16,296 nucleotides of DNA from Candidatus Fermentibacterota bacterium (GTDB lineage Bacteria; JAFGKV01). The DNA lies in assembly GCA_030620115.1 (NCBI GenBank), contig JAUXFG010000086.1, positions 1 to 16,296 on the forward strand, written 5' to 3'. This document shows, piece by piece, positions 782 to 16,181 of the stretch; within the stretch, counting starts at the first letter, position 1; every line of letters starts with the position of its first letter. A model generated the notes under the pieces. The model saw nothing but the letters and a program-made list of their open reading frames with translations, was not told the DNA's origin and did no database searches. The translations under genes were made by a program, and so were the position numbers.

Positions 782-821
782 GCCTGCCTTTTGCGAAATG
801 CTTTGCGTCAGGGAGCCGAAA

Positions 822-2687
822 GTGAAAATCCTGTTCCTCGATGATACTCATTCGTGCCGAGTTATCATGGCAGAGACCCTGTTCCGGGAGATCTCCGGCG
901 ATCAGATCGAAGTGACCAGTGCAGGAGTCGAGGCCGAAGGGATCCATCCGGAGGCGCTCACGCTTCTCCAAGAGATGGGCATCCATGTACCGGAAAAGGC
1001 GCCGGTGTCCATCGACGATCTCCGGCCTAGCTCGTTTGATCTTGTCGTCACGTTTGGCCAAAAAGCACATGACTGTTGTTGCCCTTCCTCGGCCCAGGAT
1101 GATTCCGGCGATGCGCTTCATGAGGCGCTCTTTCTTGGTTCACCGGCGCTATTGCATTGGAGCATCGAGGATCCTTGCCAGCATCTTGACCGGCCGGATA
1201 CATTTCGACAGAAGGTTGCCCAAGTCAAGGTTCGGCTCGAGGAGCAGTTGGAGCCTCTGCTTCGACACGGCTACCTCGATGCGCTTGCATCCCAGAAGCG
1301 CAACATAGAGATGATGGTTGATTCGGTGGATGTGGGGCTCATGTTCTTGAATTCCCGCGCCCGTGTCTACCTCTTCAATACCGCCGCCGAGAGGATTACC
1401 GGGCGTTTGCGCTCAGATGTACTGGGAAGGAGCTGCAGACAGGTTTTTCCCCCAACCGGAATCTGTGCGGATCAGTGCGTGTTCTCTGCCATCAGAGGTT
1501 GTGCCAAGGAGAAGCACGAGCATATCGTCTCCTACCGTACTCCCGAAGGCCGAGAGCGGAGTCTGCGGATTGTGCTCTCCCCCACGAAGACCGCATCGAA
1601 TCGCCCATGCGGCGTCACCGCCGTGATCAGTGATATCACCGAATTGGGGTTTGGACAATGGCCGGGAGGCAAATTCCACGGACTTGTGGGGCACTCCAAG
1701 GCTCTGCGAGAGGTCTTTATCACCATTCGTCAGGCCGCGCAGTTCGACTATCCGGTATTGATCAGCGGTGAGAGCGGGACGGGCAAAGAGCTTGCGGCTC
1801 GCGCGATTCATGCGGAGAGCAAGAGAAACAAAGGCCCCTTTGTACCAATCAATTGCGGCGCCCTGCCTGAGAACATCTTGGAGAGCGAGCTCTTCGGTCA
1901 TGTCAGGGGTGCATTTACGGGAGCGATCCGGGACAAGAAGGGGCGATTCGAGCTGGCCGACAACGGTACGCTTCTCCTGGACGAGGTTGGCGAGCTGAGT
2001 CCGAGTTTCCAGGTCAAATTGCTCCGCGTCCTCCAGGAGAAGCGGTTCGAGAGAGTCGGCGGCGAGCGGCAGATAAGCGTGGATGTGCGGGTGGTCAGCT
2101 CCACCAACAAAGATCTGAAGGAGCTCGTGAAGAAAGGGAAGTTCAGAGAGGACCTCTTCTATAGATTGTGTGTGGTCCCCATCAATTTGCCTTCACTCCG
2201 CACCCACCGGGAGGACCTTCCATCTCTCGTGGAGCACATCATCAGGGAGATCCGCAGGGAAACCGGCAAGCAGCTCCGCCGGGTTTCAGCGGAAACCATG
2301 GCAAGGCTTACTGCGTATCCTTGGCCGGGAAATGTGCGCGAGCTTATCAATTCGCTCCAGTATGCCACCATCCACTGTGCTGGTGATGAGATATTGCCAC
2401 AACACCTGCCGCCAGAGATCCGCCAATGGACCACCCCTGCAGGCATCCATCACGAAAAAGCTGTCTTGGTGGAAGACCAACCTGAGATACCGGAAAAATC
2501 TCTTGCACAGCCCAAAGAATCCGAGGGCCCAAAGCGCGGCAGGCAGCGATTGGACAAGCAGCGCGTCATAGATGCATTACATCAAACCTCCGGCAACAAG
2601 GTGAAGGCCGCCGCGCTCCTCGGCGTGGGGCGCGCCACATTATACCGCTTCCTCAATGATAACCCTTTGGGATCCGGTACGGAATAG
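822..2687 (+). CDS. Sigma-54-dependent activator with ArsC/LMW-phosphatase-like, PAS, AAA+ and Fis-type HTH domains
   Basis: A 621-residue bacterial enhancer-binding protein. Residues about 1-145 resemble the low-molecular-weight phosphatase/arsenate reductase (ArsC) fold. Residues about 160-275 form a PAS domain with cysteines at 205, 215, 219 and 227. The AAA+ domain has Walker A GESGTGKE (316-323), the sigma-54-contacting GAFTGA loop (363-368) and Walker B TLLLDEVGE (383-391), all intact. A Fis-type helix-turn-helix closes the protein (about 572-612). In the first domain the nucleophile cysteine of the CX5R loop is replaced by Asp7 (LDDTHSCR), and the second redox cysteine of thioredoxin-linked ArsC aligns with Gly, while a CCC run (85-87) and the EDP aspartate motif remain. 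It is therefore probably a sensor rather than an enzyme. I chose GTG 822 because AGGGAG lies at ideal spacing; an in-frame ATG at 798 has no such site. A sigma-54 promoter follows the stop, suggesting control of downstream genes. Confidence 0.93.
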   Translation: MKILFLDDTHSCRVIMAETLFREISGDQIEVTSAGVEAEGIHPEALTLLQEMGIHVPEKAPVSIDDLRPSSFDLVVTFGQKAHDCCCPSSAQDDSGDALHEALFLGSPALLHWSIEDPCQHLDRPDTFRQKVAQVKVRLEEQLEPLLRHGYLDALASQKRNIEMMVDSVDVGLMFLNSRARVYLFNTAAERITGRLRSDVLGRSCRQVFPPTGICADQCVFSAIRGCAKEKHEHIVSYRTPEGRERSLRIVLSPTKTASNRPCGVTAVISDITELGFGQWPGGKFHGLVGHSKALREVFITIRQAAQFDYPVLISGESGTGKELAARAIHAESKRNKGPFVPINCGALPENILESELFGHVRGAFTGAIRDKKGRFELADNGTLLLDEVGELSPSFQVKLLRVLQEKRFERVGGERQISVDVRVVSSTNKDLKELVKKGKFREDLFYRLCVVPINLPSLRTHREDLPSLVEHIIREIRRETGKQLRRVSAETMARLTAYPWPGNVRELINSLQYATIHCAGDEILPQHLPPEIRQWTTPAGIHHEKAVLVEDQPEIPEKSLAQPKESEGPKRGRQRLDKQRVIDALHQTSGNKVKAAALLGVGRATLYRFLNDNPLGSGTE

Positions 2688-3213: not shown

Positions 3214-3422
3214 CGTCCCTCCAGAGATGATGATGAGATGGGATTGGGTGAATGGGCGAATAGGGGATTGAGGAAGAAATCGTTCAGATGACAGAACGAG
3301 GAGCAAGGCGAGATTCTTCGCTCCTTGTGGTCGCTCAGAATGATAGTGATAGTGGACAGAAGGATGCAATACCATATGTCATTCTGAGGGAGCAGAACAT
3401 AAATTCTGGAAGGGAGGATGCG

Positions 3423-4268
3423 ATGTGGGACTATACTGAGAAAGTGAAGGATCATTTCAATAATCCGCGCAATGTGGGCGTGATCGTAGATGCTGATGGT
3501 GTTGGTGAGGTTGGATCTTTGGCATGTGGTGATGCATTGAAGCTGATGTTCAAGCTCGATAGTGAAGGCCGCATCATTGACGTGAAGTTCCAAACTTTTG
3601 GGTGCGCGAGCGCCATTGCCTCATCGTCTGCCTTGACGGAGATGATCAAGGGAAAAACGTTGGAGGAAGCCCAAAAGGTCACGAATCGGGATATCGCCGA
3701 ATATCTTGGGGGTCTGCCAGATCAGAAGATGCACTGCTCCGTCATGGGCAAGGAAGCGCTGGAGGCTGCTATCGAGAACTACCGCAGCGGAGACCAGGTC
3801 ACCAGAGAGCTCGAGGGCGTCGTGGTCTGCACCTGTTTCGGCGTCACGGAAAAGGAGATCGAGCGTACGGTCCTGGAGAATGGGCTCACCACGGTGGAAG
3901 AAGTCACCAACTATACAAAAGCCGGCGGAGGATGCGGTAGTTGCCAGCCCGAGATTGGCAAGATACTCGCCCGACTGTCTGGATCCACAGAGCCGGCAGT
4001 GGCCGAGGAGGAGCCTGAACCTCGGCCGTTGACAAACATCGAGAAAATCAAGCTCATCCAGGAAACCTTCGAACGCGAGGTGAGGCCTTTGCTTCGAAAG
4101 GACGGGGGAGACGTCGAACTCATCGATGTGGTGGGAAATCGTGTGTTGGTCTCATTGCGGGGGAGCTGCGCACACTGCCGGGTGGCACAGTTCACGTTGA
4201 GTGATGTGGTCCAGGCCAAGCTGAGGGAGTTCGTGTCACCGGACATCGTGGTGGAGGAGGTATCGTGA
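3423..4268 (+). CDS. nifU: NifU, three-domain Fe-S cluster assembly scaffold
   Basis: A 281-residue scaffold protein of the full Azotobacter NifU type. Residues 1-125 are IscU-like with the three cluster-ligating cysteines C35, C61 and C105 and the conserved Asp of ACGD. Residues about 133-185 are the central [2Fe-2S] (BFD-like) domain with C136, C138, C171 and C174. Residues about 205-280 are the C-terminal NifU domain with the CXXC pair C249/C252. It takes sulfur from NifS and assembles clusters for apo-proteins in the cytoplasm. ATG 3423 is chosen because AGGGAGG lies just upstream and the IscU domain begins here; an in-frame ATG at 3288 would add 45 repeat-derived residues. Its last bases overlap the nifS start. 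No nitrogenase genes are visible, so a general or stress-repair role is more likely than nitrogen fixation. Confidence 0.96.
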   Translation: MWDYTEKVKDHFNNPRNVGVIVDADGVGEVGSLACGDALKLMFKLDSEGRIIDVKFQTFGCASAIASSSALTEMIKGKTLEEAQKVTNRDIAEYLGGLPDQKMHCSVMGKEALEAAIENYRSGDQVTRELEGVVVCTCFGVTEKEIERTVLENGLTTVEEVTNYTKAGGGCGSCQPEIGKILARLSGSTEPAVAEEEPEPRPLTNIEKIKLIQETFEREVRPLLRKDGGDVELIDVVGNRVLVSLRGSCAHCRVAQFTLSDVVQAKLREFVSPDIVVEEVS

Positions 4269-5431
4269 GAACCATCTACCTCGACAACAATGCCACCACC
4301 ATGACCGCCCCCGAAGTTGTGGAGGCCATGCAGCCCTTCTGGACTGAGCTCTATGGGAACCCTTCGAGCATGCACACCTTCGGAGGCCAGGTGAAGCGTC
4401 ATATAGACCAAGCCCGCCGGCAAGTGGCCGCCTTGCTCAACGCCGATCCTCAGGAGATTGTATTCACCAGCGGGGGGTCCGAAGGAAACAACCTTGCAAT
4501 CCGTGGCAGCCTTGATGCACTGGACGGACTCAAGAAGCATATCATCACCACCAGGGTTGAGCACCCTGCCGTGCTTGGCGTGTTCCGGCATCTTGCCAAA
4601 CATGGCTACCGGGTCACGGAGCTCCCCGTCAACAGCGACGGCTCGTTGATTCTTGATGCGCTAGAGAGCACGCTGACACCAGACACGGCTCTGGTCAGCA
4701 TAATGTGGGCGAACAACGAGACAGGTGTGATTTTCCCCATCGAAAAAATCGCAAATCTGGTGAAATCCATGGGTGTAATACTCCATATCGATGCAGTCCA
4801 GGCCGCCGGCAAGATCCCCATCGACATCACCAGAGTTCCGGTGGATCTCCTCACCATTTCAGGGCACAAGCTTCACGGGCCTAAGGGAACCGGTGCTCTC
4901 TATGTCAGGAAGGGAACGAAGCTTGTGCCTCAGGTGATCGGCGGTCATCATGAACACAATCGGCGCGCCGGCACTGAGAATATCCCCGGCATCGTGGGCA
5001 TCGGCATGGCGACCGAATTGGCCCTGAATGGCCTCGATGAAGAGAACACACGCGTCCGTGCGCTGAGGGATCGACTCCAGCGGGGTGTGCTGGCTGGATG
5101 CAAGGCTGCGCAGGTCAATGGAGCCAACAGGCTCCCCAACACCCTCAATGTAAGCTTTCAGTATGTAGAAGGCGAGGCTATCCTCCTCTTGCTTGACAAT
5201 CTTGGCATAGCTGCCTCGTCCGGCTCGGCATGTGCCTCGGGTTCATTGCAGCCTTCTCACGTACTCAGGGCAATGGGGATTCCCTTCACATCGGCGCATG
5301 GGTCTATCCGTTTCAGTCTCAGTAGATACAATACGGAGGAAGAGATAGATCTTGTGATCAAGCACCTTCCACCCATTATCGATCGATTGAGAGAGCTTTC
5401 GCCGTTCGTCGAGGATGAACTACCGGTTTGA
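4265..5431 (+). CDS. nifS: NifS-type cysteine desulfurase
   Basis: A 388-residue fold-type I PLP enzyme that removes sulfur from L-cysteine, giving alanine and a protein-bound persulfide for NifU. Visible landmarks are the N-terminal YLDNNATT motif, the GGSEGNN cofactor loop, His100 (VEHPAV), Asp176 and Gln179 (HIDAVQAAGK), the PLP lysine Lys202 in SGHKLHGPKG, and the catalytic Cys323 in SSGSACASGS. Length and motifs are those of class I NifS/IscS. The GTG start overlaps the nifU stop (GTGA) and follows a GGAGG ribosome binding site, so the two are translationally coupled. Confidence 0.96.
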   Translation: MRTIYLDNNATTMTAPEVVEAMQPFWTELYGNPSSMHTFGGQVKRHIDQARRQVAALLNADPQEIVFTSGGSEGNNLAIRGSLDALDGLKKHIITTRVEHPAVLGVFRHLAKHGYRVTELPVNSDGSLILDALESTLTPDTALVSIMWANNETGVIFPIEKIANLVKSMGVILHIDAVQAAGKIPIDITRVPVDLLTISGHKLHGPKGTGALYVRKGTKLVPQVIGGHHEHNRRAGTENIPGIVGIGMATELALNGLDEENTRVRALRDRLQRGVLAGCKAAQVNGANRLPNTLNVSFQYVEGEAILLLLDNLGIAASSGSACASGSLQPSHVLRAMGIPFTSAHGSIRFSLSRYNTEEEIDLVIKHLPPIIDRLRELSPFVEDELPV

Positions 5432-5435
5432 CTAG

Positions 5436-5452
5436 ATGTCGAGTGTCGACAT
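5436..5452. other. Small hairpin between nifS and the rubredoxin gene
   Basis: ATGTCGA-GTG-TCGACAT forms a perfect 7-bp stem with a 3-base loop, four bases after the nifS stop. No T-run follows, so it is not a standard terminator. It could be an RNA processing or stability element separating nifUS from the downstream genes. Confidence 0.35.
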
Positions 5453-5482
5453 GACCCCTCGCTATCCAAAAGGAGTTGATTC

Positions 5483-5644
5483 ATGAAGAAGTATGAGTGC
5501 ACCGCATGTGGGTACATATACGACCCGGAAAAGGGTGATCCCGATAGCGGAATCGCCCCTGGCACCGCATTCCAGGACATTCCCGATGATTGGGTTTGCC
5601 CAATCTGCGGCGTAGGGAAAGACCTATTCGATCCAGTCGATTGA
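5483..5644 (+). CDS. Rubredoxin
   Basis: A 53-residue single-iron electron carrier beginning [19 protein letters not shown]. The iron is bound by C6 and C9 (CTACGY) and C39 and C42 (CPICG); the DWVCP context and the length are typical of classical rubredoxins. AAAAGGAG lies upstream of the ATG at proper spacing. Neighbouring genes encode a rubrerythrin-family protein without its own rubredoxin domain and a flavodiiron protein, both known acceptors of electrons from rubredoxin, so this is probably their shared donor. Confidence 0.97.
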
Positions 5645-5646
5645 AC

Positions 5647-5664
5647 TAACCCGGACTTCTCACC
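5647..5664 (+). repeat. Short dispersed repeat TAaCCCGGACTTCTCACC
   Basis: The 15-mer CCCGGACTTCTCACC (5650-5664), starting five bases after the rubredoxin stop codon, recurs exactly on the opposite strand at 14659-14673, where it directly follows the stop codon of the AbiEii gene. Counting the preceding bases, 17 of 18 match. Confidence 0.65.
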
Positions 5665-5709
5665 AACTCTCGGCTGCAACCGACCCCAGCACTGCGTAAG
5701 GAGGGGAAA

Positions 5710-6204
5710 ATGGACCTCAAATTCACGGCAGACGAAGTATTCGCCATGGCTGAACAGATAGAGGCCAACGGCGCCAAGTACTACCGCAAGGCGGCGGAGG
5801 GATTTGAAGACGAAGAGGCAAAGAAGCTGCTGCTGAGCCTGGCAGACATGGAGGATGATCATCTCAAAACGTTTTCCGGCATGCGCGAGGAACTCTCCTC
5901 ACATGAGAGAGAAAGCTCTGTGTTCGATCCATATGGCGAAGCAGGTCTCTACCTGCGAGCCATGGCCGACGATCACGTGTTCAACGTTGATCTCGACCCT
6001 TCCTCGGAATTGACCGGCCATGAGACTCTTGACGACATTCTCAAGAATGCCATCCGACTGGAGAAAGACTCCATCCTCTTCTATCTTGGAATCAAAGCAG
6101 CGATCTCGCGCCGCAAGGGCAGGGAAAAGATCGACGATATCATCGAGGAGGAATTCGGCCATATCGCCACATTGAGTAATGAGCTGAGCGTCCTCAGCAA
6201 ATGA
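5710..6204 (+). CDS. Rubrerythrin-family ferritin-like diiron protein without rubredoxin domain
   Basis: A 164-residue four-helix-bundle protein. Diiron ligands are visible as Glu18 (QIEAN), the first ExxH at Glu48/His51 (MEDDH), Glu118 (RLEKD) and the second ExxH at Glu148/His151 (EEFGH). Classical rubrerythrins carry a C-terminal rubredoxin domain; this one ends after the bundle, and a free rubredoxin is encoded just upstream. The likely role is peroxide reduction in the cytoplasm, though ferritin-like families also include proteins of other function. The start is supported by AAGGAGGGG just upstream. Its TGA overlaps the ATG of the flavodiiron gene (ATGA), implying coupled translation. Confidence 0.9.
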   Translation: MDLKFTADEVFAMAEQIEANGAKYYRKAAEGFEDEEAKKLLLSLADMEDDHLKTFSGMREELSSHERESSVFDPYGEAGLYLRAMADDHVFNVDLDPSSELTGHETLDDILKNAIRLEKDSILFYLGIKAAISRRKGREKIDDIIEEEFGHIATLSNELSVLSK

Positions 6205-7436
6205 CGGAGGATACGGTGGACACACCCTTCAAGGCAACGAAGGTCAGTGATCATGTCTATTGGGTTGGCGCCATAGACTGGGATCTCCGGGATTTCCATG
6301 GCTACTCGACCTACAGGGGATCGACCTACAACGCCTACCTGATAATGGCAGAGAAGATCACGCTCATTGATACGGTCAAGGCCCCATTCAAGGATGAGCT
6401 TCTCTCACGGATTGCTTCCGTGGTGGATCCATCATCCATTGATTACATCGTCTGCAACCATGCGGAGATGGACCACTCCGGGTGTCTGCCCGAGATCGTT
6501 GCCACAGTGAAACCCGAGAAGGTATTCGCCTCTCCCATGGGTGTACAGGCCCTGGAGGCTCACCACTTCCCGACCCTGGGAGAGGTGCAGTCCATAGGTA
6601 CCGGCGAATCGCTCTCGTTGGGCGACATGCAGCTCCTGTTTCTGGAAACTCGTATGCTCCACTGGCCGGATAGCATGTTCAGCTATCTCCCCGAGGACGG
6701 CATTCTGTTCTCCCAAGACGCGTTCGGTCTTCATTTCGCCACATCAAATCTGTTCGTGGATGAAAACGATCCAAGCGTAGTCAGGTTCGAGTCGAGCAAG
6801 TACTTCGCAAATATCCTCACGCCATTCAATCGCCTTGTGGCAAAGACCTTGGAGAAGGTGGTGGAGACGGGCTGGGATATCAAGATCCTGGCTTCGGATC
6901 ATGGCCCGATCTGGCGAGAGAATCTCGGAGAGATCCTTGGGCTGTACTCACATTGGCTACAGATGCGCCCTACCAGAAAGGCCGTAGTTGTCTATGATAC
7001 CATGTGGAAAAGCACCACAACAATGGCCCGGGCTATTGCAGATGGTCTCCAGCAGAATGGTGCGGTACCTGTTCTGATGCCTCTCTCAGGATCCACCAGG
7101 AGCGATGTCGCCACTGAACTCCTGGAGGCCGGCGCCCTTCTGATTGGATCGCCGACCCTCAACAATCAGATGCTGCCGAGCCTTGCAGATACACTCACCT
7201 ATCTCAAGGGTCTGAAGCCGAAGAATCTGATTGGCGCGGCATTTGGTTCCTATGGGTGGAGCGGTGAGGCCACGGGCCAACTCGAAGAAGCGTTGAAGGA
7301 TCTCAAGGTTGAGATCGTGGAGGATCCGATCAAGGTCAAATACGTTCCCACAAACGCCGATCTCATCGCATGTAGACAGATGGGTGAACGCATCGCCACT
7401 CGACTCGTGGAACTTGCTCCTCCTCTTGCGCCTTAG
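6201..7436 (+). CDS. fprA: Flavodiiron protein (FprA-type O2/NO reductase)
   Basis: A 411-residue cytoplasmic enzyme that reduces O2 to water and/or NO to N2O. The N-terminal metallo-beta-lactamase-like domain has the diiron ligands His87, Glu89 and Asp91 (NHAEMDHSG), His154 (LHWPDSM), Asp173 (SQDAFG) and His234 (SDHGPIW). The C-terminal flavodoxin domain (about 260-405) has the FMN phosphate loop DTMWKSTTTMA. No C-terminal rubredoxin fusion is present, in keeping with the free rubredoxin upstream. It is the last gene of the + strand series. Its TAG stop lies within the left inverted end of the repeat element that follows, so element insertion may have replaced the original C-terminus. Confidence 0.95.
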   Translation: MTEDTVDTPFKATKVSDHVYWVGAIDWDLRDFHGYSTYRGSTYNAYLIMAEKITLIDTVKAPFKDELLSRIASVVDPSSIDYIVCNHAEMDHSGCLPEIVATVKPEKVFASPMGVQALEAHHFPTLGEVQSIGTGESLSLGDMQLLFLETRMLHWPDSMFSYLPEDGILFSQDAFGLHFATSNLFVDENDPSVVRFESSKYFANILTPFNRLVAKTLEKVVETGWDIKILASDHGPIWRENLGEILGLYSHWLQMRPTRKAVVVYDTMWKSTTTMARAIADGLQQNGAVPVLMPLSGSTRSDVATELLEAGALLIGSPTLNNQMLPSLADTLTYLKGLKPKNLIGAAFGSYGWSGEATGQLEEALKDLKVEIVEDPIKVKYVPTNADLIACRQMGERIATRLVELAPPLAP

Positions 7437-9558: not shown

Positions 9559-10245
9559 CTATTGAACGAGCCCCAACCAATCTCTCAAAAGAAACGTAAA
9601 CCTACCAATAGCCAGTGACATACGAGCCATGACCGTAAATCCGAACGAGGCGCCAAAGCCTATCATGATAAATACGATGCCAACCCAAGAGGCGCCTTTG
9701 AGGATACCCTTATGTTCCTTTGAGAAGTAGAAGTAGACGATGGTGCAGATCACCCCGACGAAAACCAGAACGGCGATAATGCCTTCCCAAAGACCGGTCA
9801 TCTTTTCTGGGGTGAGTATCGTGGCGCCGGCCTGCCGGAGCACGGTTCCCTGGAAATAGGCAGGTACGGACAGGCCGGTGTAATAACCCATAAATATGCC
9901 AATGGGTATCCTCACCATCCATGAAACCCTTGGAATGAACCTGGTGAAGTAGAGGCATCCGATCATGCCGAACAGAATCACAATGAAATTCGTGTCTTGA
10001 AAGGGATTGAACAGAGCCCACGAAAGCCCGTCTCTCCCGGCTATCTTGAAAGCGTCTCCCGCCGGCTTGATGAGATTGGGAACGAGCACATTGTTGTACA
10101 TGAACGCCACCGACCAGCCATTCGAGACCCCCACAAACAGGTGTTCGCCAAATCGGTAGAAACCGTTCTCCCGCCACAGGAAGGAGAACATGCATAGGGT
10201 GAGAAACACACCTATCCAGACCCATGGATCAGTGCTTATATGCAT
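9559..10245 (-). CDS. Six-TM membrane protein of the DUF6754 operon
   Basis: A 228-residue hydrophobic protein with about six predicted TM helices (roughly 8-23, 34-55, 86-101, 110-130, 155-174 and 184-206). Residues worth noting in the loops are RENGFYRFGEH (25-35) and NPFQDTNF (80-87). I recognise no characterised family. Its ATG overlaps the stop of the upstream gene by one base (TAATG), with an AAGGAGGAG ribosome binding site, so it is translationally coupled to it and probably a subunit of the same complex. Confidence 0.8.
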   Translation of the reverse strand: MHISTDPWVWIGVFLTLCMFSFLWRENGFYRFGEHLFVGVSNGWSVAFMYNNVLVPNLIKPAGDAFKIAGRDGLSWALFNPFQDTNFIVILFGMIGCLYFTRFIPRVSWMVRIPIGIFMGYYTGLSVPAYFQGTVLRQAGATILTPEKMTGLWEGIIAVLVFVGVICTIVYFYFSKEHKGILKGASWVGIVFIMIGFGASFGFTVMARMSLAIGRFTFLLRDWLGLVQ

Positions 10246-11108
10246 TACCTTCTCCTCCTTGAGGCAAAGTAGCCAATATTCCCTATGATGACAAAGAACA
10301 TTATGGCCAAATGAGCAGCAGACTGGGAACTCATGCCTTCAGTGGCCCTCCTCCGCCCGGGCACTCCCACAACCTTGTCCACAAGCTCTTCGTATTCCGC
10401 AGCTCCTTTCATGCCTCCAAGGAGCCCACTGAACTGGCCTGATTCCAGATACGGATAGAAGTCTGCAACACTGACTGCGGTGACTCCCGCTCCCACCTTG
10501 ACCCCAAACCGTGTTTGGGCAAACTGCACGTACCATTTGGGCGAACCGCCGGAGGAGAGGGCAACCACTATGCTCAAGTCGTCATAGTTCTTTATTCCCC
10601 GCATCACGGGCATATCGGCTGTTGGCTTCTTGTAGAAATCAGTGGTATAGAAACCCGCAATGTCGGTCCCCATGGCAAGAATCGGTATGATGGGCGGCGG
10701 CTTCCATCCCAAGAACACAATATCCCGGCCCATGATGATGCTGTCCGCACTGCATGTCGCCCGTTCATTGAACTCATTGATGACCTGTTTTGCGGCATTA
10801 TCCACAAGCCCTGCTCCCTCTATGTAGAGAGTAACGAGCAATACCCTGATCTTGCGCCCCAGACAGTGCCGAAGAAGCGCGATCATCATCGGTTGCAGCT
10901 CAGGTTCTGCCTGAGGAGCATAGTCACTAGAGATCAGCACAGCCTGCGTCTCTCTGTCAGTGGCATCAACCGTATCAAAAAGGCTTTGCGTCCGGCTGGT
11001 CACGTGGGTCGGCAACCCGAACGGTTTTATGATGGGAATGGCGATCACAAGAGCCATTATGATGAAAATGATCTTTCTATCGAGCTTGAACAGCTTGGAA
11101 AGCCTCAT
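10245..11108 (-). CDS. Bitopic extracytoplasmic protein of the DUF6754 operon
   Basis: A 287-residue protein with one N-terminal TM helix (about 12-29), a soluble alpha/beta-looking domain (about 50-250) and a second TM helix near the C-terminus (about 264-283) ending in ASRRRR, which by the positive-inside rule anchors the tail in the cytoplasm. The soluble part has alternating hydrophobic strands and helices (QAVLISSDY, KIRVLLVTLY, LSIVVALSSG) and might bind a ligand, but I recognise no family. Its start overlaps the stop of the upstream 6-TM gene (ATGA). Confidence 0.8.
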   Translation of the reverse strand: MRLSKLFKLDRKIIFIIMALVIAIPIIKPFGLPTHVTSRTQSLFDTVDATDRETQAVLISSDYAPQAEPELQPMMIALLRHCLGRKIRVLLVTLYIEGAGLVDNAAKQVINEFNERATCSADSIIMGRDIVFLGWKPPPIIPILAMGTDIAGFYTTDFYKKPTADMPVMRGIKNYDDLSIVVALSSGGSPKWYVQFAQTRFGVKVGAGVTAVSVADFYPYLESGQFSGLLGGMKGAAEYEELVDKVVGVPGRRRATEGMSSQSAAHLAIMFFVIIGNIGYFASRRRR

Positions 11109-11767
11109 TCTCCACCTCCCATCCAGCTCCGCTCGATGCCTGTCATGATCTTCAGCATGGTCGCTATCATCCCCAAGCAGACGCCGATCTCGATTCCTCG
11201 CTTGCTGGCTGTGTTCGGTACTCTCATGATAAAATCCGAGATCTCGGGTATATGACGCGAGATCGCCGCACCGATGGGGATCTGGCCAAGCATGACGATG
11301 AATGCGGACACTAATAGAAGAATAGCCAAGCTGCTCTTCGCTCTAAAGGAGCGATATGCAGCAGAGGCCATAAAAAAGGCAAGCATTGCAAACATCGTGG
11401 CACCCAATGGTACCAATATCTTGAAGTAGATCGTCCATATATCGAAGTTGAAGCTTCCGATCTCTGTCCGGAATAATCCAATCTCGCCTTCCCGATCACC
11501 AAAAAGCCCAATCACTGCGGCGATGAAGAAACCCAAGATAGTAACTATGCTAAACTGCCAATTCTTTGCCTTTCGCTTGACCTTCATGAAATGGGTTCGC
11601 AGCAGATTGCCCAGCGCGAGAATCAATGCGAATGCCCCGATGATAAGCATCATCTTGTTTCTTAAGGTCAGGTCAAAGGTCTCCCACGCCGGATGGGGGA
11701 TAAAGATGGATATCACGCCGAGAATACCAAAGAATATGAGCAGCCCTAACGGGAACTTACGGTGCAT
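11105..11767 (-). CDS. Six-TM membrane protein, second gene of the DUF6754 operon
   Basis: A 220-residue protein with about six TM helices (roughly 6-24, 39-55, 72-90, 114-137, 146-166 and 190-210), a basic cytoplasmic-looking loop MKVKRKAKNW (61-70) and a C-terminal GIERSWMGGGE tail. No characterised family is recognised. It starts 12 bases after the DUF6754 gene, with AAGGAGG at its ribosome binding site, and its TGA overlaps the start of the following gene by four bases. Confidence 0.8.
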   Translation of the reverse strand: MHRKFPLGLLIFFGILGVISIFIPHPAWETFDLTLRNKMMLIIGAFALILALGNLLRTHFMKVKRKAKNWQFSIVTILGFFIAAVIGLFGDREGEIGLFRTEIGSFNFDIWTIYFKILVPLGATMFAMLAFFMASAAYRSFRAKSSLAILLLVSAFIVMLGQIPIGAAISRHIPEISDFIMRVPNTASKRGIEIGVCLGMIATMLKIMTGIERSWMGGGE

Positions 11768-11779
11768 CTCTTCGCCTCC

Positions 11780-12871
11780 TTATTGGAAAAGACGCACCAC
11801 GGGCGTCTTGAATACCAAAGCAAGAAAGGAAAGAACAAACAGGAATCCACCGATGATAACCTTACCATAGTCCTGGCCCTTGAGTGCGCCAAGCATTAAA
11901 GGCTCGCGTGACAAGTATGCACTGGCAGCGTAAAGTTCCTCACCAATCAGCGTATAGTCACATGCAACCACGAAGAACGGAAGTTGGGTCACGCAGTCCG
12001 TACCTGCGATCTGAATGGCGCCAACAGAGGCGCCCGTTTCGGCGAGAATAAGGCTTTCTGCACCGAATGCACCCATAAGAAAATTCGTGGCGGGCTTATC
12101 TCGCATCATAATGCCATCAACTGCTGAAGCGTAAGCCAATACATTCTGTGCCAGGAAGAATACCGAGTCAGGATCAAATGCATCGGGCCGCCCTGCCTCC
12201 ATGTATGCGCCCTTCACAATCTCCATTGTGACGGTGAATACTATAGGATCTTTGTTTGGTACCTTCAACCCAGTACCATGCTCAGCCGCCTTCTTGGCGA
12301 CTTCGCCCAATAGATTCATCGATGCGATTGTGGCAATGTCCTCGATGTAGCCCACGCCCGGAATGTACAAGATATCCCGCCCCATCTCCGTGGCGCGTCC
12401 CACTGCCTCATCGACTGCCTCGAGTCCTGCGATCTTGCGAACAAAAAGCTCGTGCCCGCTCTTCGCATTCAGTATGAACACGCCAACCAGGCTCAGGAAG
12501 ATGACAAGCCCCACTGCCACGTTTAGATATGCCATATTGAACCATTGGGGGCTGCTTATGACCGGGAGGCTTGTTTCTGAGAAGAGAATTGTATCAGGAT
12601 AAACGGCTCCTACCCTGTATCGGTACGGGATCTTATCCTCGACCGCCTCGTCGAGGTAGCTGGCCATCTTGACGGAAGGCCTATCTATTTCTCCGAATTC
12701 TTCCTCAGGGCCTACCCGCTCGATGACGAATTCAATGACACCCTGTTTGTCTGCAGGGAACTCCCATGCAACGGAAATGCTCTTTCCGTTATCACTGGGC
12801 GTGTCCTTCACTGTCAGGTCCGTGGGACCGACCAACGACAGGAGAAGGACGAGCGATAAGGATAGCGTCAT
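11780..12871 (-). CDS. FN3-like plus DUF6754 membrane protein
   Basis: A 363-residue protein of the DUF6754 family, which has no known function. It has a short hydrophobic N-terminus (1-15, possible signal sequence), a fibronectin-III-like segment (about 17-105, ending FSETSLPV), a TM helix (about 114-135), the DUF6754 region (about 138-335) and a C-terminal TM helix (about 338-355). The DUF region carries the well-conserved-looking segments LYIPGVGYIEDIATIASM, GAIQIAGTD and FFVVACDYTLIGEELYAASAYLS. ATG 12871 is preceded by AAGGGAGGG. It is the first of four tightly spaced genes, so the locus probably makes a membrane complex in which this is the most recognisable subunit. The assignment to DUF6754 is from memory. 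Confidence 0.82.
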   Translation of the reverse strand: MTLSLSLVLLLSLVGPTDLTVKDTPSDNGKSISVAWEFPADKQGVIEFVIERVGPEEEFGEIDRPSVKMASYLDEAVEDKIPYRYRVGAVYPDTILFSETSLPVISSPQWFNMAYLNVAVGLVIFLSLVGVFILNAKSGHELFVRKIAGLEAVDEAVGRATEMGRDILYIPGVGYIEDIATIASMNLLGEVAKKAAEHGTGLKVPNKDPIVFTVTMEIVKGAYMEAGRPDAFDPDSVFFLAQNVLAYASAVDGIMMRDKPATNFLMGAFGAESLILAETGASVGAIQIAGTDCVTQLPFFVVACDYTLIGEELYAASAYLSREPLMLGALKGQDYGKVIIGGFLFVLSFLALVFKTPVVRLFQ

Positions 12872-14673: not shown

Positions 14674-15531
14674 CTAGGGTGACATCAGATTGATCAATTG
14701 ATCCAGTGCCTGGGAGAATAGCTCACGGGTCCACGCACTGAGACTATCCATCTCTTTTGCCATGATGAAACGTCTGACGTCGGCTCGTGCGACATCCCAA
14801 TCGATCTCTTTGATGCGATCCAGCATTGCCTCATAATACCACTTCGGTGTCACGCGAATAGACCTTCCGGACCATGTACCGTGTTGATCCAAGGCACTAC
14901 CGAGAAGATCGAGATCAGGAACGATCTTCTTCCCAGTGTACCAAAGAAAATCGTACCAGTCCCTACCTTTTGTGTACTCGCGACAAAGAAGCGCGTGTGA
15001 TTTCAAACCGAAGCTCGAAGGTAGCGTTTGTGTTGTAATAGCAGCGGTCAGAGGGAATGTGATGTACTTGGTCTCGAGCTGCGATCCCTCAGGAGGATTG
15101 GAATCGATCTCGAGTTTGATCCTCACCTTTCGATTCGAATGTCTCGGGAAAGGAAAATTAGACCGTTGGCCGACGAAATCCGTTTTTAGGAACACCTTTT
15201 TGACGGCCGTACTCGCTGATGATTTTTCCTGCAATTCAAAGCAAATCCCTTCTGCCTCGCAATCTGATTGAATGCGATCAACATACGGTTTCCACTGAAA
15301 TTGCGGGTCAGGTTTTCTAAGCAAGAAATCCAGATCCTCGGAGAAGCGGTTCATCCCGTAGAGAATGCGCAGGCAGGTACCACCATGAAACAGTGCCTGT
15401 GAAAAGAAGCGGGCACTGGAAAGGCTGGCGAGTACATAGTGTTGCAGTAGCTCGGACAAAGTACTCTCCTGCTCAATAGAGTTTGCGGGAGAGTAGTCGC
15501 GGAGTCTATCAGCCAGGATGTCGCCGATCAT
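14674..15531 (-). CDS. abiEii: AbiEii/AbiGii-family nucleotidyltransferase toxin
   Basis: A 285-residue toxin of the type IV toxin-antitoxin AbiE family, which carries a DNA polymerase beta-like nucleotidyltransferase fold and arrests growth, often giving phage resistance. Motif I is HGGTCLRILYG (49-59); motif II is RFSEDLDF (62-69) with metal-binding Asp66 and Asp68; motif III is KLEID (139-143); motif IV is KGRDWYDFLWY (188-198) with Asp191 and Asp194. All catalytic positions appear intact. Its ATG overlaps the antitoxin's stop by four bases. Substrate tRNA or protein is not deducible. Confidence 0.92.
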   Translation of the reverse strand: MIGDILADRLRDYSPANSIEQESTLSELLQHYVLASLSSARFFSQALFHGGTCLRILYGMNRFSEDLDFLLRKPDPQFQWKPYVDRIQSDCEAEGICFELQEKSSASTAVKKVFLKTDFVGQRSNFPFPRHSNRKVRIKLEIDSNPPEGSQLETKYITFPLTAAITTQTLPSSFGLKSHALLCREYTKGRDWYDFLWYTGKKIVPDLDLLGSALDQHGTWSGRSIRVTPKWYYEAMLDRIKEIDWDVARADVRRFIMAKEMDSLSAWTRELFSQALDQLINLMSP

Positions 15532-16181
15532 CGCCCGATCTCCGTTTTTAATCCGTTAAGGTATGTCCTTGTTCGCTTGTTCCCGATGCTCTGGCAGATC
15601 TCTCCGAAATCTTCCAACTGCATTGCTCGGAGATCGCCCTCTTCGATGCGCATAGAGACTGTAAGAAAGCGGCTACCGTCTTTTCCCCATGAGATATGTT
15701 TTCTGAGATAGATAAGATCGGCGATGGACCGAAGGGGGCTAGCTACAAACGCCCATCCATACTCATCTACTTTTTCCAAATTGACACCTGCCCGAGGATT
15801 GGCTGCAGGAACCCTCTGGAAAGTGAAGATTCCTAGTGGCGTAAGGAATTCTCTGCTTCGCCGGATCGTAACGCTGCTTATCTGGTGCACGGCCTCGGGA
15901 ATGAGCCCATGATGCGATAGCGCTGACTCGAGACTAATGTGGGATGGGGAATGGAGTAATGCTGCAACAACAAAGGGATGAGGGTGAGACCGTCGATATG
16001 CCTCTGTTAGGCAATAGACACCGGGCTTGATTCGGATAATTTCACCGTTGTGGACCGCACGGTAGATAAGGAGTTTTCGTGCCCCAGCTGAGGCCTTCGG
16101 AAACAGGTTCCGTACCACGATATCATCAAAGATGCCACCCGGCGGGTCCAATCTATACACTTGTTCAGTGAGTGTTTGCAA
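15528..16181 (-). CDS. abiEi: AbiEi-family antitoxin and transcriptional autorepressor
   Basis: A 217-residue partner of AbiEii. An N-terminal winged-helix domain (about 1-58) ends in the family's GEIIRIKPGVYCL wing, and the C-terminal domain contains SHISLESALSHHGLIPE (80-96) and ITS-like strands with TPLGIFTFQRV. In characterised AbiE systems this protein binds inverted repeats in its own promoter and neutralises the toxin without a stable complex. The start is TTG 16181, supported by GGAG six bases upstream. A perfect palindrome lies within the predicted promoter just upstream. Confidence 0.9.
   Translation of the reverse strand: MQTLTEQVYRLDPPGGIFDDIVVRNLFPKASAGARKLLIYRAVHNGEIIRIKPGVYCLTEAYRRSHPHPFVVAALLHSPSHISLESALSHHGLIPEAVHQISSVTIRRSREFLTPLGIFTFQRVPAANPRAGVNLEKVDEYGWAFVASPLRSIADLIYLRKHISWGKDGSRFLTVSMRIEEGDLRAMQLEDFGEICQSIGNKRTRTYLNGLKTEIGR

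Follow-up and report, generated by a model that had tools for sequence, protein, structure and literature searches.

A conserved DUF6754 membrane operon as the possible core of a larger envelope machine

Introduction

The locus considered here lies in a genome of Candidatus Fermentibacterota, where four adjacent genes encode an FN3-DUF6754 protein (A) and three further membrane proteins (B, C and D). Do these proteins form a complex of their own, and what might such a complex do in the cell envelope? Only A belongs to a described family: it is a full member of PF20539 (DUF6754), a Pfam family that has been assigned no function and covers one of the four core proteins. B, C and D have no Pfam or NCBIfam match above cut-off and no convincing PDB relative, and a Pfam scan of all their members gave only scattered noise below cut-off. 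An initial sequence-only reading, which knew of no function for any of the four, is thereby borne out. DUF6754, PF20539 and PF13941 (the family of the associated ATPase described below) were named in no paper found by a literature search outside which most subscription papers lay.

Gene layout

The window, i.e. the whole stretch of 16,296 nucleotides that was analysed, corresponds to contig C11, from a genome of 4.1 Mb that is 98% complete. The four genes and their downstream neighbour are arranged as follows:

12871-11780, minus strand: A, 363 aa, stop TAA; N-terminus resembling a signal peptide, FN3 domain (residues 13 to 110, approximately), transmembrane helix (TM) 113-137, cytosolic alpha/beta DUF6754 domain (150-321), TM 324-354
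11767-11105, minus strand: B, 220 aa, start 12 bases past A; six TMs, N-in/C-in by the positive-inside rule, no known family
11108-10245, minus strand: C, 287 aa, ATGA overlap with B at 11105-11108; TM 11-27, extracytoplasmic six-stranded Rossmann-like domain (38-247), TM 254-286
10245-9559, minus strand: D, 228 aa, sharing one base with C at 10245 (TAATG); 6-7 TMs, probably a 2-TM hairpin repeated three times, no known family
9528-7834, minus strand: YfhO-like membrane protein (match below cut-off), start 30 bases past D

The 12-base gap, 4-base overlap and 1-base overlap first described for this operon are all found on the minus strand at these positions. Each start has a plausible Shine-Dalgarno sequence (AGGAGG, GGGAGGTGG and AGGAGG, with GAAGGGAGGG preceding A). 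The YfhO-like gene may be co-transcribed with D; in a relative's orthologous operon (L106), a HAMP-SpoIIE phosphatase takes its place. No Rfam element or tRNA was found in the window, terminator-like sites showed no excess over shuffled sequences, and the number of promoter-like sites (8 versus 4.1 +/- 2.1 in shuffles) was not informative.

Distribution and copy number

Profiles built for the four genes recovered 118 complete ABCD units, all in the same order, from 97 loci in about ten phyla, often as two or three tandem copies. The prediction that the genes would co-occur in other genomes thus held in this gene-neighbourhood survey. Between 75 and 87% of the ABCD junctions have a gap of 20 nt or less, as measured with the ORFs at their longest start; 104 homologues of B were found next to A, and 100 of D next to C. 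The proteins also diverge in a correlated manner, with r = 0.84-0.87 among B, C and D and 0.63-0.66 for A versus these.

A scan of GTDB genomes yielded 473 stretches that encode a DUF6754 relative. The best 80 of these come, by the phylum names in their record titles, from WOR-3/Stahlbacteria, TA06, Eisenbacteria, Edwardsbacteria, Latescibacterota, Poribacteria, Zixibacteria, Fermentibacteria, Coatesbacteria, Cloacimonadota and Armatimonadota, among others. In three phylum samples, DUF6754 was present in 40/40, 36/40 and 173/201 genomes. Nearly all genomes sampled from the Zixibacteria and WOR-3 groups have it, as do about 86% of the sampled Armatimonadota, and it occurred in none of 14 well-known control genomes. 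Taken together, the surveys of the window's own genome, of GTDB genomes and of the phylum samples show that A-B-C-D is a fixed unit. The existence of the complex is a well-supported prediction, and a unit so often multi-copy and conserved in several bacterial phyla, most of them largely uncultured, probably does something central.

The window genome has seven DUF6754 genes, six in A-B-C-D order and one lone A, and ABCD genomes from many phyla have one to six matches each. Among the subunits, C has diverged furthest between most tandem copies. In Armatimonadota, the operon is compact and usually occurs as a single copy.

Several loci depart from the common arrangement. Lone A genes without B, C and D are found in L008 (6146-7321), L057, L070 and L089, some lone A genes lying 2-3.5 kb from a complete operon, and L129 has two A genes in tandem ahead of BCD. 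What seems to be a fusion of B and C in L090 has the look of a frameshifted B gene and was therefore excluded as evidence on topology. Within the window's family, the ABCD copy that has diverged most (L013, L108 and L109) has an SH3-type protein upstream and a long protein downstream, which in L013 is a HAMP/HisKA histidine kinase of 1338 aa.

Proteins of the core

The FN3-DUF6754 architecture of A is secure. PF20539 matches at E = 2.3e-109 (364.9 bits versus a cut-off of 27) over profile positions 3-248 of 257, and FN3 is recognised both by profile, with titin FN3 chains down to 1e-31, and by the fold of the AlphaFold2 model (pLDDT 94), at Z 12.6-13.8 and 1.6 A. Fold searches with this model were dominated by FN3 matches, which masked the DUF6754 domain. 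Since 18 of the 148 A proteins, almost all of them armatimonadote, lack FN3, this domain is an accessory. Conservation extends over the entire DUF6754 domain, in which Cys304-Asp305 is almost invariant and conserved residues are not enriched at the strand ends. The positive-inside rule places it in the cytoplasm, in agreement with the sequence-only reading.

By the same rule, the charge bias of C places its domain outside the membrane, as had been proposed. The AlphaFold2 model of C (pLDDT 96, pTM 0.92) shows a Rossmann-like domain. Its nearest fold is that of the CODH epsilon subunit, with Z 9.5 and 3.0 A over 146 aligned residues at 10% identity. This value lies only just above those of other Rossmann folds, many unrelated structures reach Z 8-9, and there was no Foldseek match at E <1e-3. 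The suggested remote-homology search of C pointed to a Rossmann-like fold but to no Pfam, NCBIfam or PDB family. DHS-like and Rossmann NAD-binding folds (CODH epsilon subunit, TrkA RCK, transhydrogenase dIII) resemble the C domain; however, C faces outward on two TM anchors, and the likeness is of fold only, near the level of the unrelated structures. At the strand ends of C, conserved residues are raised relative to the remainder of the domain (p = 0.003) but not relative to the opposite ends (p = 0.14). His266, Gly276 and Asn277 in the second TM are also conserved.

In the models, the A and C domains both consist of six beta-alpha units in the same order, each domain lying between two membrane anchors. 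A common origin might be suggested on this basis, purely as a suggestion; profile comparison by hhalign gave a probability below 1%.

B and D had been described as two different 6-TM proteins. This stands for B, whereas a more fitting description of D is a set of roughly three 2-TM hairpins that repeat weakly (profile self-alignments at probabilities of 82 and 64). Profile self-comparison found no internal repeats in A, B or C, and homology between B and D was not significant by profiles.

Upstream partners

The commonest extra neighbours of ABCD lie directly upstream of A on the same strand and encode four proteins:

P: about 150 aa, two TMs, weak match to a bacterial PH domain (bPH_6, below cut-off)
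S: 100-150 aa, conserved motif LES-KPLSF--Q
M: about 600 aa, MutL family (PF13941), ASKHA ATPase motifs DCGSTTTK, VDIGGATTD and GSGG
R: about 375 aa, barrel-sandwich region weakly like RnfC_N and biotinyl domains, KOW-like end

The PF13941 match of M is strong (E 4e-127 in L041 and 1.3e-128 in the window genome), and the nucleotide motifs are present in nearly all M proteins, from which ATP hydrolysis by M is predicted; no convincing PDB relative of M was found. R gave weak KOW (SPT5) and TIM-barrel hints against the PDB and nothing more.

The order P-S-M-R-A-B-C-D is contiguous in five loci (L040, L041, L044, L046 and L126) and nearly so in four (L127, L128, L130 and L131). R lies immediately upstream of A in about 21 loci from several phyla. 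Among the loci taken from Armatimonadota, P-S-A-B-C-D is the usual form: S precedes the core in every one of the 19 loci, and P-S does so in 18. In the window genome, all eight parts are present but scattered, S-M-R being together on contig C105 and P on C54. The initial description of a four-gene unit was therefore too narrow, since P, S, M and R also belong to it in many lineages.

Of 20 ABCD genomes drawn from many phyla, 18 have R, each with a single full-length copy, and it was not found in the other two (G004 and G012). In Armatimonadota, it is present in all 19 A-positive genomes versus 8 of 20 A-negative ones (Fisher p = 4.5e-5, an optimistic value as the genomes are related and some possibly incomplete). 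That R is single-copy and ABCD multi-copy suggests one shared energising module (M-R-S) for several cores.

A second M-type protein, of 920-985 aa, occurs apart from ABCD in L102 (5132-8089) and L049 (17795-20557); in L049, the same chain includes an R-like barrel part.

A candidate machine and its rivals

Together, ABCD and P-S-M-R are treated here as a system of its own, whatever its function. The preferred reading, held tentatively and with somewhat less than even confidence, is that ABCD forms, in the inner membrane, the core of an undescribed machine, P-S-M-R-A-B-C-D, in which one ATPase module drives the cores. Sequence, conservation and models support a core with the DUF6754 domain of A inside, FN3 outside in most lineages and the C domain outside on its two TMs, with B and D as the multi-pass body, and this core is genetically linked to an ATPase whose motifs are intact. 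M and R, aided by S and the PH-like P, would dock onto the cytosolic DUF6754 domain, and nucleotide-driven movement of M could be relayed by A and the B/D body until it reaches the C domain outside, which would then change its grip on a ligand in the envelope. In multi-copy genomes, one M-R-S module might serve several cores that differ most in C. For the output, we lean towards transport or handling of the envelope powered by ATP, and sensing is the strongest alternative. Against the machine stand the many ABCD operons located apart from M-R, the two ABCD genomes in which R was not found, the A-negative Armatimonadota that still have R and the neighbouring genes, which name no substrate.

The sensing alternative holds that ABCD is a trans-envelope sensor in which C and FN3 bind an outside signal and the cytosolic domain of A passes it on to M/R as well as to partners of the two-component or phosphatase kind. 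The many paralogous cores, diverging mostly in C, would suit such a role, as would the signalling genes found at particular sites: a HAMP/HisKA kinase after the copy on contig C5, the HAMP-SpoIIE phosphatase that follows the orthologous operon of the relative, a protein kinase after S-M-R on C105 and DUF4388 genes downstream in some WOR-3. However, in a sample with one locus per cluster, signalling families are not enriched next to ABCD compared with genes at least five away, and two whole multi-pass proteins plus an ATPase exceed what a sensor usually needs. We consider this explanation unlikely, if still a serious one. Beyond P-S-M-R, the neighbours in that sample show no enrichment of substrate, metabolic or signalling genes over farther genes; signalling neighbours are striking in the window's own family and not enriched overall.

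Slightly less likely still is a transporter dedicated to a single class of substrate, in which C would bind the substrate and B/D would form the permease. Its attractions are the internal hairpin repeat of D, a feature common in permeases, the outward Rossmann-like domain of C with its conserved strand-end residues, and the polar His266 and Asn277 within the membrane. Yet B and D have no transporter similarity above the Pfam cut-off, no catabolic or biosynthetic neighbours recur, and A-D contain no P-loop. ABC or ECF membership was rejected on the last point (no Walker A motif in A-D), together with the ASKHA nature of M. ECF transporters combine one shared energising module with many substrate parts. 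The shared cytosolic ATPase module and several membrane cores proposed here offer an organisational parallel only, and differ in having an ASKHA-type (M) instead of an ABC ATPase.

The family of M raises another option. MutL has been described as a chaperone that reactivates glutamate mutase (PMC4682846), and M, a member of the MutL/GlmL family with intact nucleotide motifs, could by analogy be an ATP-dependent reactivating chaperone for an "enzyme" made from A-D and R, namely, the DUF6754 domain with its Cys304-Asp305. The high conservation of this domain and its almost invariant Cys would fit. Unlike MutL/GlmL of glutamate mutase, however, M is linked to a membrane operon, and the mutase E subunit (PF06368) was found in none of three genomes of the window's phylum. 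No cofactor motif was recognised, and the remainder of the complex is membrane protein. This leaves the chaperone with a low probability.

Least probable by far is a redox-driven ion pump of the Rnf/Nqr type, with R as RnfC/NqrA, B and D as RnfA/RnfE and C as RnfG. The N-terminal barrel of R weakly resembles RnfC_N and NQRA_N below cut-off (22.2 bits versus 25.6 for RnfC_N), and Rnf and Na+-NQR combine a soluble barrel-sandwich subunit, which R may resemble, with two multi-pass subunits of about six TMs and one anchored outward protein, as here. Unlike those pumps, B and D are mutually unrelated and have no conserved Fe-S cysteines (top Cys column 0.21 in B and 0.34 in D), the covalent-FMN motif [ST]GA[TS]x[TS] occurs in 0 of 86 C sequences, and an ATPase is present. 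The missing Cys and FMN motifs largely refute membership. An anti-phage defence system was also considered and dropped, there being no PADLOC match for A-D, M, R or S.

To return to the ATPase-driven machine, a broader claim is possible, if doubtful: P-S-M-R-A-B-C-D may be a near-core envelope machine of several phyla, in which an actin/Hsp70-fold ATPase drives a two-sided core. If true, this would be a mode of energising the envelope that is absent from any described system, with an ASKHA ATPase linked to a membrane core without known relatives. The Armatimonadota include cultured members. Because the operon there is compact and usually single-copy, its function is directly testable in that phylum.

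Other features of the window

The rest of the window carries four features apart from the operon:

14674-16181, minus strand: AbiEii nucleotidyltransferase toxin and AbiEi antitoxin (type IV toxin-antitoxin), with a 4-base overlap
3288-7436, plus strand: Fe-S/oxygen-stress cluster encoding, in a row, NifU (N, BFD and C domains), a NifS-type class V aminotransferase, a rubrerythrin-like protein and a flavodiiron-type protein
798-2687, plus strand: an unusual fusion protein with low-molecular-weight phosphatase-like, PAS, sigma-54 activator AAA+ and Fis-type HTH parts
1-262: direct repeat of 101 bp at the end of the contig, with 98% identity between the copies and a spacing of 161
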